Assembly (NCBI GenBank): GCA_025356085.1
Contig: JANXUV010000207.1
Location: forward strand, 1 to 34,650
From: Betaproteobacteria bacterium
Lineage (GTDB): Bacteria > Pseudomonadota > Gammaproteobacteria > Burkholderiales > SG8-39
Reading direction: 5' to 3'
DNA length: 34,650 bases
Under the pieces are notes generated by a model. That model did no database searches. It was given only the letters and a program-made list of their open reading frames with translations, and had not been told where the DNA came from. Within the stretch, counting starts at the first letter, position 1. Each line of letters opens with the position of its first letter. Below are positions 14,027 to 18,938 of this stretch, one piece after another. Position numbers and translations under genes: made by a program.

Positions 14027-15468
14027 TGGATGCCGATGTGCTGCTCGCCACCGCGGACGCCTGCCTGCTGGCGCCGTTCGACCTCCAAAGTCGTAAGTTG
14101 GATGCGGTCTACGGTGCCCTCGCCGGGCGGCGCCTCGACTATGCCGACCTGTATTTCCAGTACACCCGCGCCGAGAGCTGGAGCCTGGAGGAGGGCATCG
14201 TCAAGTCGGGCAGCTTCTCGATCGAGCAGGGCGTCGGCGTGCGCGCGATTTCTGGCGAGAAGACCGCCTTCGCCTACTCCGACGAAATTAGCTTTTCGGC
14301 CTTGCAGGATGCCGCTCGCGCGACGCGCGCCATTGGCCATTCGGGAAAATCTCAAACGGGGAAAGTCGCCACGCGCAGCAGGGCGCCGCGGCGCTACGAG
14401 CCGCTCGACCCGCTGGCTTCGCTGGATGCGGACCGGAAAATAAAGCTGCTCGAAAAACTCGAGCAGCTTTGCCGCGCCACCGATCCGCGGGTGACGCAGG
14501 TGGTAGCGAACCTGGGCGCAGAGTACGAGGTGGTGCTGATCTCGCGCTCCGACGGCGTGCTGGCCGCCGACGTGCGCCCGCTGGTGCGGCTGTCGGTGCA
14601 GGTGATCGCCGAGGCCGGCGGCCGGCGTGAAATGGGACATGCGGGCGGCGGCGGGCGCACCGGCTACGAGCATTTCAGCGACGAAGTCCTCAAGGATTAC
14701 GCCCAGCAGGCGGTGCATCAGGCGCTGGTGAATCTGGAATCGAAACCCGCGCCGGCCGGCACCATGACCGTGGTGCTCGGACCCGGCTGGCCGGGCATCC
14801 TGCTGCACGAGGCGATCGGCCACGGCCTGGAAGGCGACTTTAACCGCAAGGGCAGCTCGGCGTTTTCCGGGCGGCTCGGCGAGCGCGTCGCCTCGCGCGG
14901 CGTCACGGTGGTGGACGACGGCACGCTGCCCGGCCGGCGCGGCTCGCTCACCGTGGACGATGAAGGCAACCCGACGCAGCGCACCGTGCTGATCGAGGAC
15001 GGCATCCTGCACGGCTACATGCAGGACAGCCTGAACGCGCGCCTGATGAAAATGCCGGTCACCGGCAACGCCCGGCGCGAATCCTTCGCGCACATGACCA
15101 TGCCGCGCATGACCAACACCTACATGCTGGCCGGCACGCGCGAACCCGAGGAAATCATCCGCAGCGTGAAGAAGGGCCTGTACGCGGTGAATTTCGGCGG
15201 CGGCCAGGTGGACATCACCACCGGCAAGTTCGTCTTCTCGGCGGTGGAGGCCTACATGATCGAGAACGGCAAGGTCACCCATCCCGTGAAAGGAGCCACG
15301 CTGATCGGCAATGGTCCGGATGCGCTCACCCGCGTCAGCATGATTGGCAACGACTTGCAGCTGGACAATGGCCAGGGCACCTGCGGCAAGGAAGGCCAGA
15401 GCGTGCCGGTCGGCGTCGGCCAGCCGACGCTGAAGATCGACGGGCTGACGGTTGGTGGAACAGCCTGA
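14026..15468 (+). CDS. tldD: metalloprotease TldD
   Basis: 481 aa from ATG 14026 (overlaps the yhdP TGA); [30 protein letters not shown] contains the HExxxH metal site; C-terminal [12 protein letters not shown]. Confidence 0.95.
14442..14470 (+). other. perfect hairpin inside tldD: AAAGCTGCTCGA-AAAAC-TCGAGCAGCTTT
   Basis: 12-bp perfect inverted repeat with 5-nt loop read directly. Confidence 0.85.
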
Positions 15469-16252
15469 AGATCTAGCCGCGCGAATTCCGGATGGGGCGT
15501 TACTTGCCCTTCCGCCGGACTATTCGCTGGTGGCGATGGAAGTGGTGCGGGCACTGATCCGGAAAAAGGCGCGCAACCTCCGGCTGCTCGGCGTTCCCAT
15601 CCTCGGCCTGTCGGCCGATTTGCTGATCGGCGCGGGCTGTGTCGCTGAGGTGGAGACGAGCGCGGTATCGCTCGGTGAGGCGGGGTTGGCGCCGCGATTT
15701 ACCGATGCTGTTGAAAAAAAATCCCTCCTTGTAAAAGACGCAACCTGCCCGGCAATTCATTGCGCGCTGCAGGCGGCGGAAAAGGGCGTGCCCTTCATGC
15801 CGCTCGCCGGCATCGGTGCCTCCGACCTCCTGAAGGAAAGAAAGGACTGGAAAGTGCAGGGCGATCTCGTCCTTGTGCCCGCGATCCGGCCGGATATCGC
15901 GCTGTTCCACGCGCGCTGGGCGGACGAGGCCGGCAACGTCTGGGTCGGCCGGCGGCGGGAGCTCGCCACAGCCGCGCATGCTTCCCGGCTTGTTTTTGTT
16001 TCTTTTGAAGAAAAAAAACCAGGAGACATGCTGGAGGACGAAGTTCTCGCCCCGGGCGTCATCTCGTCCATCTATGTTTCTGGCGTCGCACACACGCCGC
16101 GCGGCGCCTGGCCGCTCGGCATGCCTGGGCTTTACGGCGCCGACGACCTGCACGTTTCGCAATACGCCAAGGCGGCGAGGACGCGCGATGGCTTCCAACG
16201 TTACCTGGACGAATGGGTCCATACGCCAAGGAAGAACTCCTCGCCTGCGTAA
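15452..16252 (+). CDS. CoA-transferase subunit A (glutaconate/3-oxoacid CoA-transferase-like)
   Basis: 266 aa; [67 protein letters not shown]; start TTG 15452 or GTG 15455, inside the tldD 3' end. Confidence 0.85.
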
Positions 16253-16896
16253 TCGCGAGGTTGCTGGACGGCGCGCGCCATGCCGCGGTCGGCGCGTCGT
16301 CGCCGATTCCCGCCGCGGGTTGTTTTTTGAGAAAAAATTTTGACCTTGGGTTCCGGGTTTCGTTGCAGCAGCGGCGGGCTTCCAATCCCTTTACCGAAGG
16401 CTCGCGCGAACTCTTCGACCTCGCCGGCCAGGGGCGCATCGACGTGTTTTTCCTCGGCGGCGCGCAGATCGACGGAGGTGGCGCGATCAACCTGGTGCGC
16501 GCGGAGGGCAAGCGCTTCCCGGGGTCGTTCGGCTCGGCGTACATGTACGGGGTGGTACCCCGGACGATCCTGTTTCGCGAGGAGCACTCGCGCCGCACGC
16601 TGGTGCCGAAGGTCGAATTCGTTTCGGCGCGCGGCACGCCGGCGGCACTGCTCACCGGCAAGGCACTGTTCTCGTGGCAGAAGGACAAGCGCCGTTTCCG
16701 GCTCGAAAGCGTGCATCCAGGCGTTAGCGCCGAAGAAATCCGAGAAACCACCGGCTTCGATTACGATGCACCGCAGCAAGTACCGGGAACTCCGCCACCG
16801 TCCCCAAGCGAATTAAATCTGCTTCGCGGCCCTGTGGCGCGCGAAATCGGAGAAAATTACCCGGAGTTTGCGCGCAGAGTCTGGGGTTCCAGCTAG
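16213..16896 (+). CDS. CoA-transferase subunit B
   Basis: 227 aa; [44 protein letters not shown]; 40-nt overlap with subunit A. Confidence 0.85.
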   Translation: MGPYAKEELLACVIARLLDGARHAAVGASSPIPAAGCFLRKNFDLGFRVSLQQRRASNPFTEGSRELFDLAGQGRIDVFFLGGAQIDGGGAINLVRAEGKRFPGSFGSAYMYGVVPRTILFREEHSRRTLVPKVEFVSARGTPAALLTGKALFSWQKDKRRFRLESVHPGVSAEEIRETTGFDYDAPQQVPGTPPPSPSELNLLRGPVAREIGENYPEFARRVWGSS

Positions 16897-16904
16897 GCAT
16901 GTGA

Positions 16905-17012
16905 CTGAATATCTGCGTCGCGGCGCCGGCGGTGCTGAACGCGATTTATCGCGCGACGGGCAAGCGCATCCGCTCGTTCCCGCTGAAGAACCACGGTATC
17001 GAAATGGTGTGA
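16905..17012 (+). pseudogene. C-terminal relic of a xanthine-dehydrogenase-family molybdopterin-binding subunit
   Basis: Translation LNICVAAPAVLNAIYRATGKRIRSFPLKNHGIEMV* ; in-frame TGA at 16902; resembles the ...NAI(Y/F)xATGKRIRSLPLKNH C-terminus of XDH-family large subunits. Confidence 0.7.
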
Positions 17013-17416
17013 GGGGTTTCGCTTTCGCACTTTTGCTGGCTGTTTCAGGAAGCGTCTTCTCGAACGAAGAATTATCGACCCCGATGTCCGGCGCCAAAGG
17101 CGATCCGGCGCGGGGCCGGGCGATTGTGGCGAACCGGCAGGCCGGCCTGTGCCTGCTATGTCACAGTGGGCCGTTTCCGGAGGAGCGCTTCCAGGGCAGT
17201 ATCGCGCCGGACCTGAACGGAATCGGCTCGCGGCTGTCGGAAGGCCAGATACGATTGCGCATCGTGGACCCGGGACGCTTCAATCCTTCGACGATCATGC
17301 CTGCCTACTTCCGCACGGAAGGCCTGGCGCGCGTCGCACCTTCCTTCAAGGAAAAGCCGATTCTCAGCGCGCAGCAGATCGAGGACGTCGTCGCTTTCCT
17401 CGCGACGCTGAAATGA
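17009..17416 (+). CDS. soxX: sulfur oxidation c-type cytochrome SoxX
   Basis: GTG start; signal peptide MRGFAFALLLAVSGSVFS; CLLCHSGPFPEERFQGSIAPDLNGIGSRLSEGQIRLRIVDPGRFNPSTIMPAYF. Confidence 0.92.
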   Translation: MRGFAFALLLAVSGSVFSNEELSTPMSGAKGDPARGRAIVANRQAGLCLLCHSGPFPEERFQGSIAPDLNGIGSRLSEGQIRLRIVDPGRFNPSTIMPAYFRTEGLARVAPSFKEKPILSAQQIEDVVAFLATLK

Positions 17417-17420
17417 TCGC

Positions 17421-17870
17421 ATGATCACGCGCCGCGAATTCGTCGTGCTGGCCTGCGCCACCGCCTCCTGCGCCGCGCCCGGCGCGCTGCATGCCACGCC
17501 CGCCGCGGTGGACGAGGCGATACGCGCCATCACCGGCGGCACCCCGGCCAGGCGTGGCAGGGTGAAGCTGGATGCGCCCGCGCTGATCGAGAACGGCAAC
17601 TCGGTGGTGCTGGGCGTCTCGGTCGAAAGCCCCATGACGCAGGCGGACCACGTCAAGGCGATCCATGTCTTCGCGCCAATGAATCCGCTGCCCAACATGG
17701 TGAGCGTGTACCTCGGGCCGCGCTCCGGGCGCGCGCAGTTCTCGACGCGGGTGCGCGTGGCGGACACCCAGACGCTGGTGGCGCTCGCGCAAATGAGCGA
17801 CGGCAGCTTCTGGTCGGACCAGGTGAGCGTGGTGGTGACGATCGCCGCCTGCCTGGAGGAGCTGAAGTAG
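17421..17870 (+). CDS. soxY: thiosulfate oxidation carrier protein SoxY (atypical C-terminus)
   Basis: 149 aa; Tat-like MITRREFVVLACATASC; IENGNSVVLGVSVESPMTQADHVKAIHVFAPMNPLP; ends VTIAACLEELK rather than GGCGG. Confidence 0.9.
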   Translation: MITRREFVVLACATASCAAPGALHATPAAVDEAIRAITGGTPARRGRVKLDAPALIENGNSVVLGVSVESPMTQADHVKAIHVFAPMNPLPNMVSVYLGPRSGRAQFSTRVRVADTQTLVALAQMSDGSFWSDQVSVVVTIAACLEELK

Positions 17871-17871
17871 C

Positions 17872-18192
17872 ATGGCGCGCGCCATCATCCAGGTGCCGGC
17901 GCGTGCGAAGCGCGGCGACATTCTCGAGCTGCGGGCGCTCATCGGCCACGTCATGGAAACCGGCTTTCGCCGTACCGAATCGGGGGCGCTGGTGCCGCGC
18001 GACATCATCCGGCAGCTGGTCTGCACTTACAATGGCATCGAGGTCTTTCGCGCCGACTTCCATCCGGCGATCGCCGCCAATCCGCTGATCAGTTTCACCA
18101 CCGTCGCCACCGAGAGCGGGAAAATGGAATTCCGCTGGACCGGCGACAACGACTTCTCCGCGACCGAGTCGGCGCCGATCACCGTAGAGTGA
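17872..18192 (+). CDS. soxZ: thiosulfate oxidation carrier complex protein SoxZ
   Basis: 106 aa; VPARAKRGDILELRALIGHVMETGFRRTESGALVPRDIIRQLVCTYNGIEVFRADFHPAIAANPLISF. Confidence 0.93.
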   Translation: MARAIIQVPARAKRGDILELRALIGHVMETGFRRTESGALVPRDIIRQLVCTYNGIEVFRADFHPAIAANPLISFTTVATESGKMEFRWTGDNDFSATESAPITVE

Positions 18193-18938
18193 TAGCGCGT
18201 TTTCTTTTCCTGTTTTTGATTCTCGGTTCGCCCGCGGGAGCGCAGACGCCTCCCGCAGATCGTCGTTCCGGCTACGAATTCATGGGTCAGGACACGCGCG
18301 CCATGCAGAATGACGACGCAACCAACCCCGCAATGCTCTGGGTGCTGGATGGAGAGGCGCTTTGGGGCCGTAGGACCGGAGCGGCAGACAAGGCCTGCGC
18401 CGACTGCCACCAGGGCATGCAGGGTGTTGCCGCGCGCTACCCCGCACTGCATTCTGAAAAACTGGTCAATCTTGACCAGCGCATCAACCTTTGCCGCACC
18501 GAACAGCAAAAGGCGCCGGCATTGCAGCTCGAAAGCCGCGAACTGCTCGCGCTAAGCGCGTATATCGGCCGGCAGTCGCGCGGCCTCCCGATCGACATCG
18601 CCGAATCTGAGCAGGCAAAGCCTTTCCTGGACTCCGGGCGGGCGGCGTTCAACCGGCGGCAGGGCCAGCTGAATCTTTCCTGCACGCAGTGCCACGTTGG
18701 GCTCGCCGGCAACAAGCTCGCCGGCAATCCGATTCCGCAGGCCCATCCGACCGGCTACCCGATCTACCGCCTGGAGTGGCAGGGCCTGGGCTCGCTGCAG
18801 CGGCGCCTGCGCAACTGCATGATCGGCGTGCGCGCCGAACCTTATGCCTATGGCTCGCCGGAGTTCGTCGAGCTCGAGTACTACCTGATGTGGCGCGCGC
18901 GCGGCATGAAGCTGGAGACTCCCGCGGTCCGGCCGTAG
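18189..18938 (+). CDS. soxA: diheme cytochrome SoxA
   Basis: 249 aa, GTG start; two CxxCH (CADCH, CTQCH), RINLCRTEQQKAP, catalytic-Cys region RLRNCMIGVRAEPYAYGSPEFVELEYYL. Confidence 0.92.
   Translation: MIARFLFLFLILGSPAGAQTPPADRRSGYEFMGQDTRAMQNDDATNPAMLWVLDGEALWGRRTGAADKACADCHQGMQGVAARYPALHSEKLVNLDQRINLCRTEQQKAPALQLESRELLALSAYIGRQSRGLPIDIAESEQAKPFLDSGRAAFNRRQGQLNLSCTQCHVGLAGNKLAGNPIPQAHPTGYPIYRLEWQGLGSLQRRLRNCMIGVRAEPYAYGSPEFVELEYYLMWRARGMKLETPAVRP

Follow-up and report, generated by a model that had tools for sequence, protein, structure and literature searches.

The sulfur substrate of SoxY rides on the cysteine of a GGCGG arm (PMC6067878). SoxYZ-type carriers can also be associated with a periplasmic dehydrogenase that has a different chemistry, as described for family TIGR04557 and PP_2677 of Pseudomonas putida (PMC12997753). 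SoxY proteins with an AAC arm are not new either: they already form a curated family, TIGR04487 ('SoxY-related AACIE arm protein'), although a survey of the open-access literature returned no paper on the gene partners or function of its members. To our knowledge, no two-subunit Mo-hydroxylase of the xanthine dehydrogenase/aldehyde oxidase family has been described in connection with SoxYZ. Here, we analyzed a stretch of 34,650 nucleotides of betaproteobacterial DNA (the window), which carries a compact soxX-soxY-soxZ-soxA group with all four genes intact and their motifs kept (Table 1).

The soxY product is 149 amino acids long, with a twin-Arg-like TRREF near its N terminus, and ends in VVVTIAACLEELK (longer tail, QVSVVVTIAACLEELK, then stop), which reads VTIAACLEELK. 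The original prediction, made from this DNA alone, held that this SoxY lacks the GGCGG terminus and keeps one cysteine at the equivalent, nonterminal place, and both the end of the ORF and a phmmer alignment confirmed it. Cys144 is matched to the cysteine of the GGC motif in Paracoccus pantotrophus SoxY (2oxg, E 6.8e-17) and is followed by five residues, LEELK, before the stop, so that AACLEELK stands where canonical SoxY has GGCGG. The protein carries the AAC[I/L]E-type arm of TIGR04487 (TIAACLEELK) and passes that model with 179.8 bits against a cut-off of 172, bearing out the further suspicion that such variants may be in databases. It fails the model for true SoxY, TIGR04488 (97 bits versus 125), and the one for the quinoprotein-associated SoxYZ-like carrier, TIGR04557 (52.5 bits for Y and 38.4 for Z versus 140, with Y and Z unfused). 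The immunoglobulin-like fold of SoxY is nevertheless recovered: an AlphaFold2 model (mean pLDDT 86.9; the final residues are a tail of low confidence, 61) has P. pantotrophus SoxY 2oxg as its best fold match (E 1e-10; TM 0.84 normalised by target). The soxZ gene directly downstream presumably encodes its partner. The probable GTG start of soxX, at 17009, overlaps the stop of an upstream gene remnant, and the mechanical ORF starts at 16868. SoxA has two CxxCH haem motifs. Its R-x3-C-x4-R-A motif, kept in 93/96 relatives, we take to hold the conserved cysteine of the active site.

Table 1. Features of the soxXYZA locus in the window.
Feature	Position	Strand	Basis
Two CoA-transferase-like genes, flank outside the module	15452-16252 and 16213-16896	+	PF01144
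MoL C-terminal stub (remnant of Mo-hydroxylase large subunit), LNICVAAPAVLNAIYRATGKRIRSFPLKNHGIEMV then stop	16908-17012	+	Identity to relatives' MoL; tblastn 16908-17009
soxX, monohaem c-type cytochrome	17009-17416	+	TIGR04485, 76.7 bits, above cut-off
soxY, AAC-arm type	17421-17870	+	TIGR04487 match, Pfam SoxY, fold match to 2oxg
Cys144 codon, presumed carrier cysteine	17850-17852	+	Alignment with P. pantotrophus GGC cysteine; invariance in 122 relatives
soxZ, partner subunit	17872-18192	+	TIGR04490, 76.5 bits, cut-off 76
soxA	18189-18938	+	TIGR04484, 208.7 bits, above cut-off

Relatives were drawn from 370 genomes of the class, 300 genomes of the order, and 80 loci with named records, yielding 122 AAC-type loci that are not fully independent, as some records perhaps occur in both sets. 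The arm cysteine is present in 122/122 of their SoxY proteins and is never the last residue (0/122); it is preceded by alanine in 120/122 and has Glu or Asp at +2 in every one. This A-C-x-[E/D] pattern is not chance, as judged from its conservation. In a SoxY tree of 83 rows, a 99/91 branch sets off the AAC type, together with one divergent extra row, and a 99/87 branch sets off the GGCGG and other loci; the placement of rows on long branches, L134 and L115 among them, is unsure. The AAC soxXYZA type occurs in 36 of the 300 sampled genomes of the window's order and also in records from Alphaproteobacteria and Rokubacteria.

Clustering and ordering of neighboring ORFs showed that the relatives' sox genes are immediately preceded by two genes for an enzyme of the xanthine dehydrogenase family, encoding its 2Fe-2S subunit (MoS) and its large subunit with the Mo cofactor (MoL), the usual order being MoS-MoL-(fccAB)-soxX-Y-Z-A. 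Among AAC loci with at least 3.6 kb of upstream sequence, a requirement that excluded some near contig ends, 88/97 have MoL upstream on the same strand. The corresponding count is 0/21 in a comparison set of mostly GGCGG loci, which includes the non-GGCGG loci L125, L128, and L129 and the AAC locus L122, counted in both sets. The nine exceptions include the window; L119 and L120 do carry the pair, but in divergent orientation. No residual MoL was found in the MoL-less loci L086, L094, L097, L102, L122, and L232. Three of these, L232, L086, and L122, have AAC soxXYZA without MoS/MoL or a detectable stub, which suggests repeated loss of the Mo-hydroxylase.

The catalytic motifs of the pair are conserved: GxGE is kept in 96/101 MoL proteins, and both 2Fe-2S motifs are kept in 96/97 MoS proteins. 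MoCoBD domains are present, a twin-Arg-like leader was found in 63/101, and the enzyme is probably periplasmic. No curated NCBIfam subfamily matched MoS or MoL at cut-off, and the closest solved structure to MoL is the large subunit of an aldehyde dehydrogenase (8gy3, E 2.7e-69). Between MoL and soxX, 24/80 named loci encode an FccB-type flavoprotein, a subunit of flavocytochrome c sulfide dehydrogenase (FccAB) (PF21706/PF09242 domains; PDB 1fcd, E 2e-114), and 18/80 encode a small cytochrome c. Independently, RefSeq annotates the full order in Methylobacterium sp. NMS14P as (2Fe-2S), Mo subunit, cytochrome, FAD protein, soxX, 'SoxY-related AACIE arm protein', soxZ, soxA; Neorhizobium galegae has a matching cluster in which the TIGR04487 name is also used. 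SoxY and MoL distances covary (rho 0.70 versus at most 0.21 in permutations), with shared species history a partial cause.

A further group has MoS-MoL-soxY-soxZ clusters without soxX or soxA (L078, L081, L082, L085, L087, L090-L093, L095, L099, L101, and L106). Their arms end mostly in CG, CGL, or CGG, and both of the two SoxY proteins scanned pass TIGR04487; MoL is upstream on the same strand in 14/14 loci of this group. On pSymA of Sinorhizobium meliloti, a genetically tractable species, L247 (6902-9343) has yet another SoxY variant (arm ending ATNGCL), followed by soxZ, a cytochrome c gene, and an FAD protein gene in flavocytochrome c order, with no soxB nearby.

At a threshold of 200 bits, soxB was near the AAC soxY in 0/122 loci. 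The check proposed with the original prediction, that the AAC arm goes with absence of soxB from the genome, was not borne out, since soxB scored above cut-off in 28/36 AAC genomes of the order sample (8/36 were without it) and in the window's genome. In the rest of the order sample soxB was found in 114/264 genomes, a lower fraction than among AAC genomes in a comparison uncorrected for relatedness, and with this enrichment we rejected the absence of soxB as the driver of the AAC type. Behind the named loci, 16/20 genomes have soxB; it is missing from Microvirga sp. BSC39, M. arabica, Telmatospirillum siberiense, and the metagenome-assembled genome SG8_41. Most of the soxB-less genomes in the two samples are drafts. 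Thus, the AAC system neither requires nor replaces soxB, and because most AAC genomes encode SoxB elsewhere, action in trans is possible. The broader claim of a variant carrier with other substrates or partners fared better in its other parts: the lineage is distinct and the partners differ (its own soxX, soxZ, and soxA, no adjacent soxB or soxCD, and the Mo-hydroxylase upstream in relatives), and only the tie to soxB absence fell away.

The rest of the window's genome (3.17 Mb, 96.7% complete) places the AAC set in context. Contig C199 carries a canonical, GGCGG-armed soxYZAX, and the single soxB lies at the end of contig C73, outside the window. These data imply that the AAC set is a paralogous second system, not a damaged thiosulfate carrier. 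No SoxC scored above cut-off in this genome (best 219 versus 420 bits), so soxCD was not called; an fccAB pair sits on another contig, C208. Adjoining soxB on C73, in divergent orientation, is a different xanthine-dehydrogenase-type pair with weak similarity to MoS/MoL (L035, 1551-4645). Congeners have a further divergent soxYZA-soxB cluster (L121, L123, and L124), which differs from the canonical cluster and also has a GGCGG arm.

No intact MoS/MoL lies beside soxXYZA in the window; all that is found there is the MoL stub, the last ~34 codons of the gene, with 91% identity over 33 amino acids to the MoL C termini of related Betaproteobacteria (L162/L163/L074). A CoA-transferase-like pair occupies the place of the relatives' MoS/MoL. 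Another MoS/MoL pair lies on contig C104 without a link to sox, and C222 carries a C-terminal MoL fragment that is perhaps the end of the C104 MoL. We ruled out the C104 MoL as the lost partner, as it is 42-50% identical to the MoL proteins of Mo-Sox clusters, against 91% for the stub, and unlinked to sox. With MoS/MoL lost from this locus, its soxXYZA would either use partners encoded elsewhere or have a reduced role.

Upstream of the module lie TldD and the two CoA-transferase-like genes; downstream are a GGDEF-EAL gene, glpK, and sucCD. On a single contig of congener G589, TldD and the CoA-transferase-like pair are directly followed by glpK-sucCD, and on a single contig of congener G424 one GGDEF-EAL-type gene separates the two groups; neither has sox genes at this place. 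A contig chimera at the MoL stub is therefore unlikely, and the simplest reading is that the sox piece was inserted here, truncated before or after. The CoA-transferase-like genes, which come after tldD, are divergent, with weak matches to PF01144 only, and the trio they form with tldD keeps its position beside glpK-sucCD in related members of the genus and family.

We conclude, with a probability of roughly 60%, that this SoxY serves as carrier subunit in a second Sox-type system, one that works independently of SoxB and in relatives is clustered with MoS/MoL, often with FccAB, and with SoxXA. From gene content and motifs, we infer a shared pathway in which SoxXA would couple a sulfur compound oxidatively to the arm cysteine of SoxY, so that a mixed disulfide or persulfide forms there. 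The Mo-hydroxylase would then oxidise a carbon of the arm-bound compound. FccAB, where present, would draw electrons from released sulfide or sulfane, the electrons would pass to cytochromes c, and SoxB, which acts on GGCGG arms, would be dispensable. The substrate of this periplasmic module is probably an organic sulfur compound: a SoxYZ loaded by SoxXA, a Mo-hydroxylase, and a frequent sulfide dehydrogenase are best fitted by SoxB-free oxidation of a carbon-containing sulfur compound. More tentatively, and with the odds against it, these loci may represent a widespread, previously undescribed periplasmic pathway in which the Mo-hydroxylase acts on organic sulfur held by the A-C-x-[E/D] arm, SoxXA loads it, FccAB clears, and neither SoxB nor SoxCD has a role.

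Other explanations account for part of these observations. An ordinary thiosulfate carrier whose arm has drifted could rely on the SoxB that belongs to the cell's canonical set and serve as a backup or regulated SoxYZ; soxB is indeed present in most AAC genomes and in the window's own, and SoxX, SoxZ, and SoxA are recognisable as Sox proteins. We consider this quite improbable, as the AAC clade is separate, its acidic +2 residue is invariant and its cysteine never terminal, and soxB is never adjacent and is missing from some AAC genomes altogether. The GGCGG arm, moreover, enters a narrow SoxB channel unsuited to bulky charged residues, and those of the AAC arm would not be expected to fit; a structure exists (4uwq). 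A thioester or aldehyde relay without sulfur oxidation, in which the arm cysteine would trap an aldehyde as a hemithioacetal for oxidation by an aldehyde-oxidase-type Mo-hydroxylase, is unlikely but somewhat more credible. It would accord with the nearest solved relative of MoL, with the group that pairs MoS/MoL with soxYZ alone, and with the parallel of SoxYZ-like carriers beside PQQ alcohol dehydrogenases (PMC12997753). Sulfur chemistry is indicated instead by the FccB found in some clusters and by SoxXA, retained with its active cysteine motif in most, and the low TIGR04557 score of the window SoxY also speaks against the relay.

A third explanation concerns the window alone: a piece of the operon may have landed between TldD/CoA-transferase and GGDEF-EAL/glpK/sucCD with its Mo-hydroxylase cut off, leaving a decaying soxXYZA that is no longer useful. 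The short MoL remnant and the sox-free flanks in congeners are what such decay would leave, and the nearest other MoS/MoL in the genome is just 42% identical to the query MoL. Yet soxX, soxY, soxZ, and soxA are intact with their motifs, dN/dS-like ratios against G499 are ~0.2-0.45 (most of the divergence may predate the loss), and a few other loci, such as the three without a detectable stub, likewise have soxXYZA without MoL. We regard decay as very unlikely.

Since sox genes often serve as markers of thiosulfate oxidation in metagenome studies, and AAC soxXYZA is common in the window's order but never beside soxB, taking it as a sign of thiosulfate oxidation may mislead. Should the Mo-hydroxylase act on a carrier-bound substrate, SoxYZ carriers would have been recruited a second time, in addition to the quinoprotein case, and work on cultured strains (for example Polynucleobacter, Methylobacterium sp. 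NMS14P, or Neorhizobium galegae) could reveal the substrate. Nothing on a link between the Mo-hydroxylase, FccAB, and SoxXYZA was found in the open-access literature; subscription papers and preprints lay outside this scope, so a prior description is possible.

Among known systems, TIGR04487 agrees with the window SoxY in length, A-A-C-x-E arm, and a score above its cut-off, and in gene context in NMS14P and N. galegae; its name records the arm only, and its model also passes the sister group with arms ending in CG or CGG. With canonical SoxYZ (TIGR04488, 2oxg), the window SoxY has in common the fold, the position of the arm cysteine, the SoxZ partner, and neighboring SoxXA, but it differs in lacking GGCGG, in scoring below the cut-off, in having no soxB or soxCD in its cluster, and in belonging to a separate clade. 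The TIGR04557 carrier likewise joins a SoxYZ carrier to a periplasmic dehydrogenase of another chemistry, whereas the window module has separate Y and Z genes, scores far below that cut-off, and keeps soxXA, and the partner in its relatives is a molybdenum enzyme. MoS/MoL share MoCoBD, a 2Fe-2S subunit, GxGE, and a twin-Arg-like leader with the xanthine dehydrogenase/aldehyde oxidase family. The relatives' flavoprotein resembles that of FccAB, with FccB domains and a strong match to 1fcd; it lies within their Mo-Sox cluster, and the window's genome has fccAB on a separate contig.
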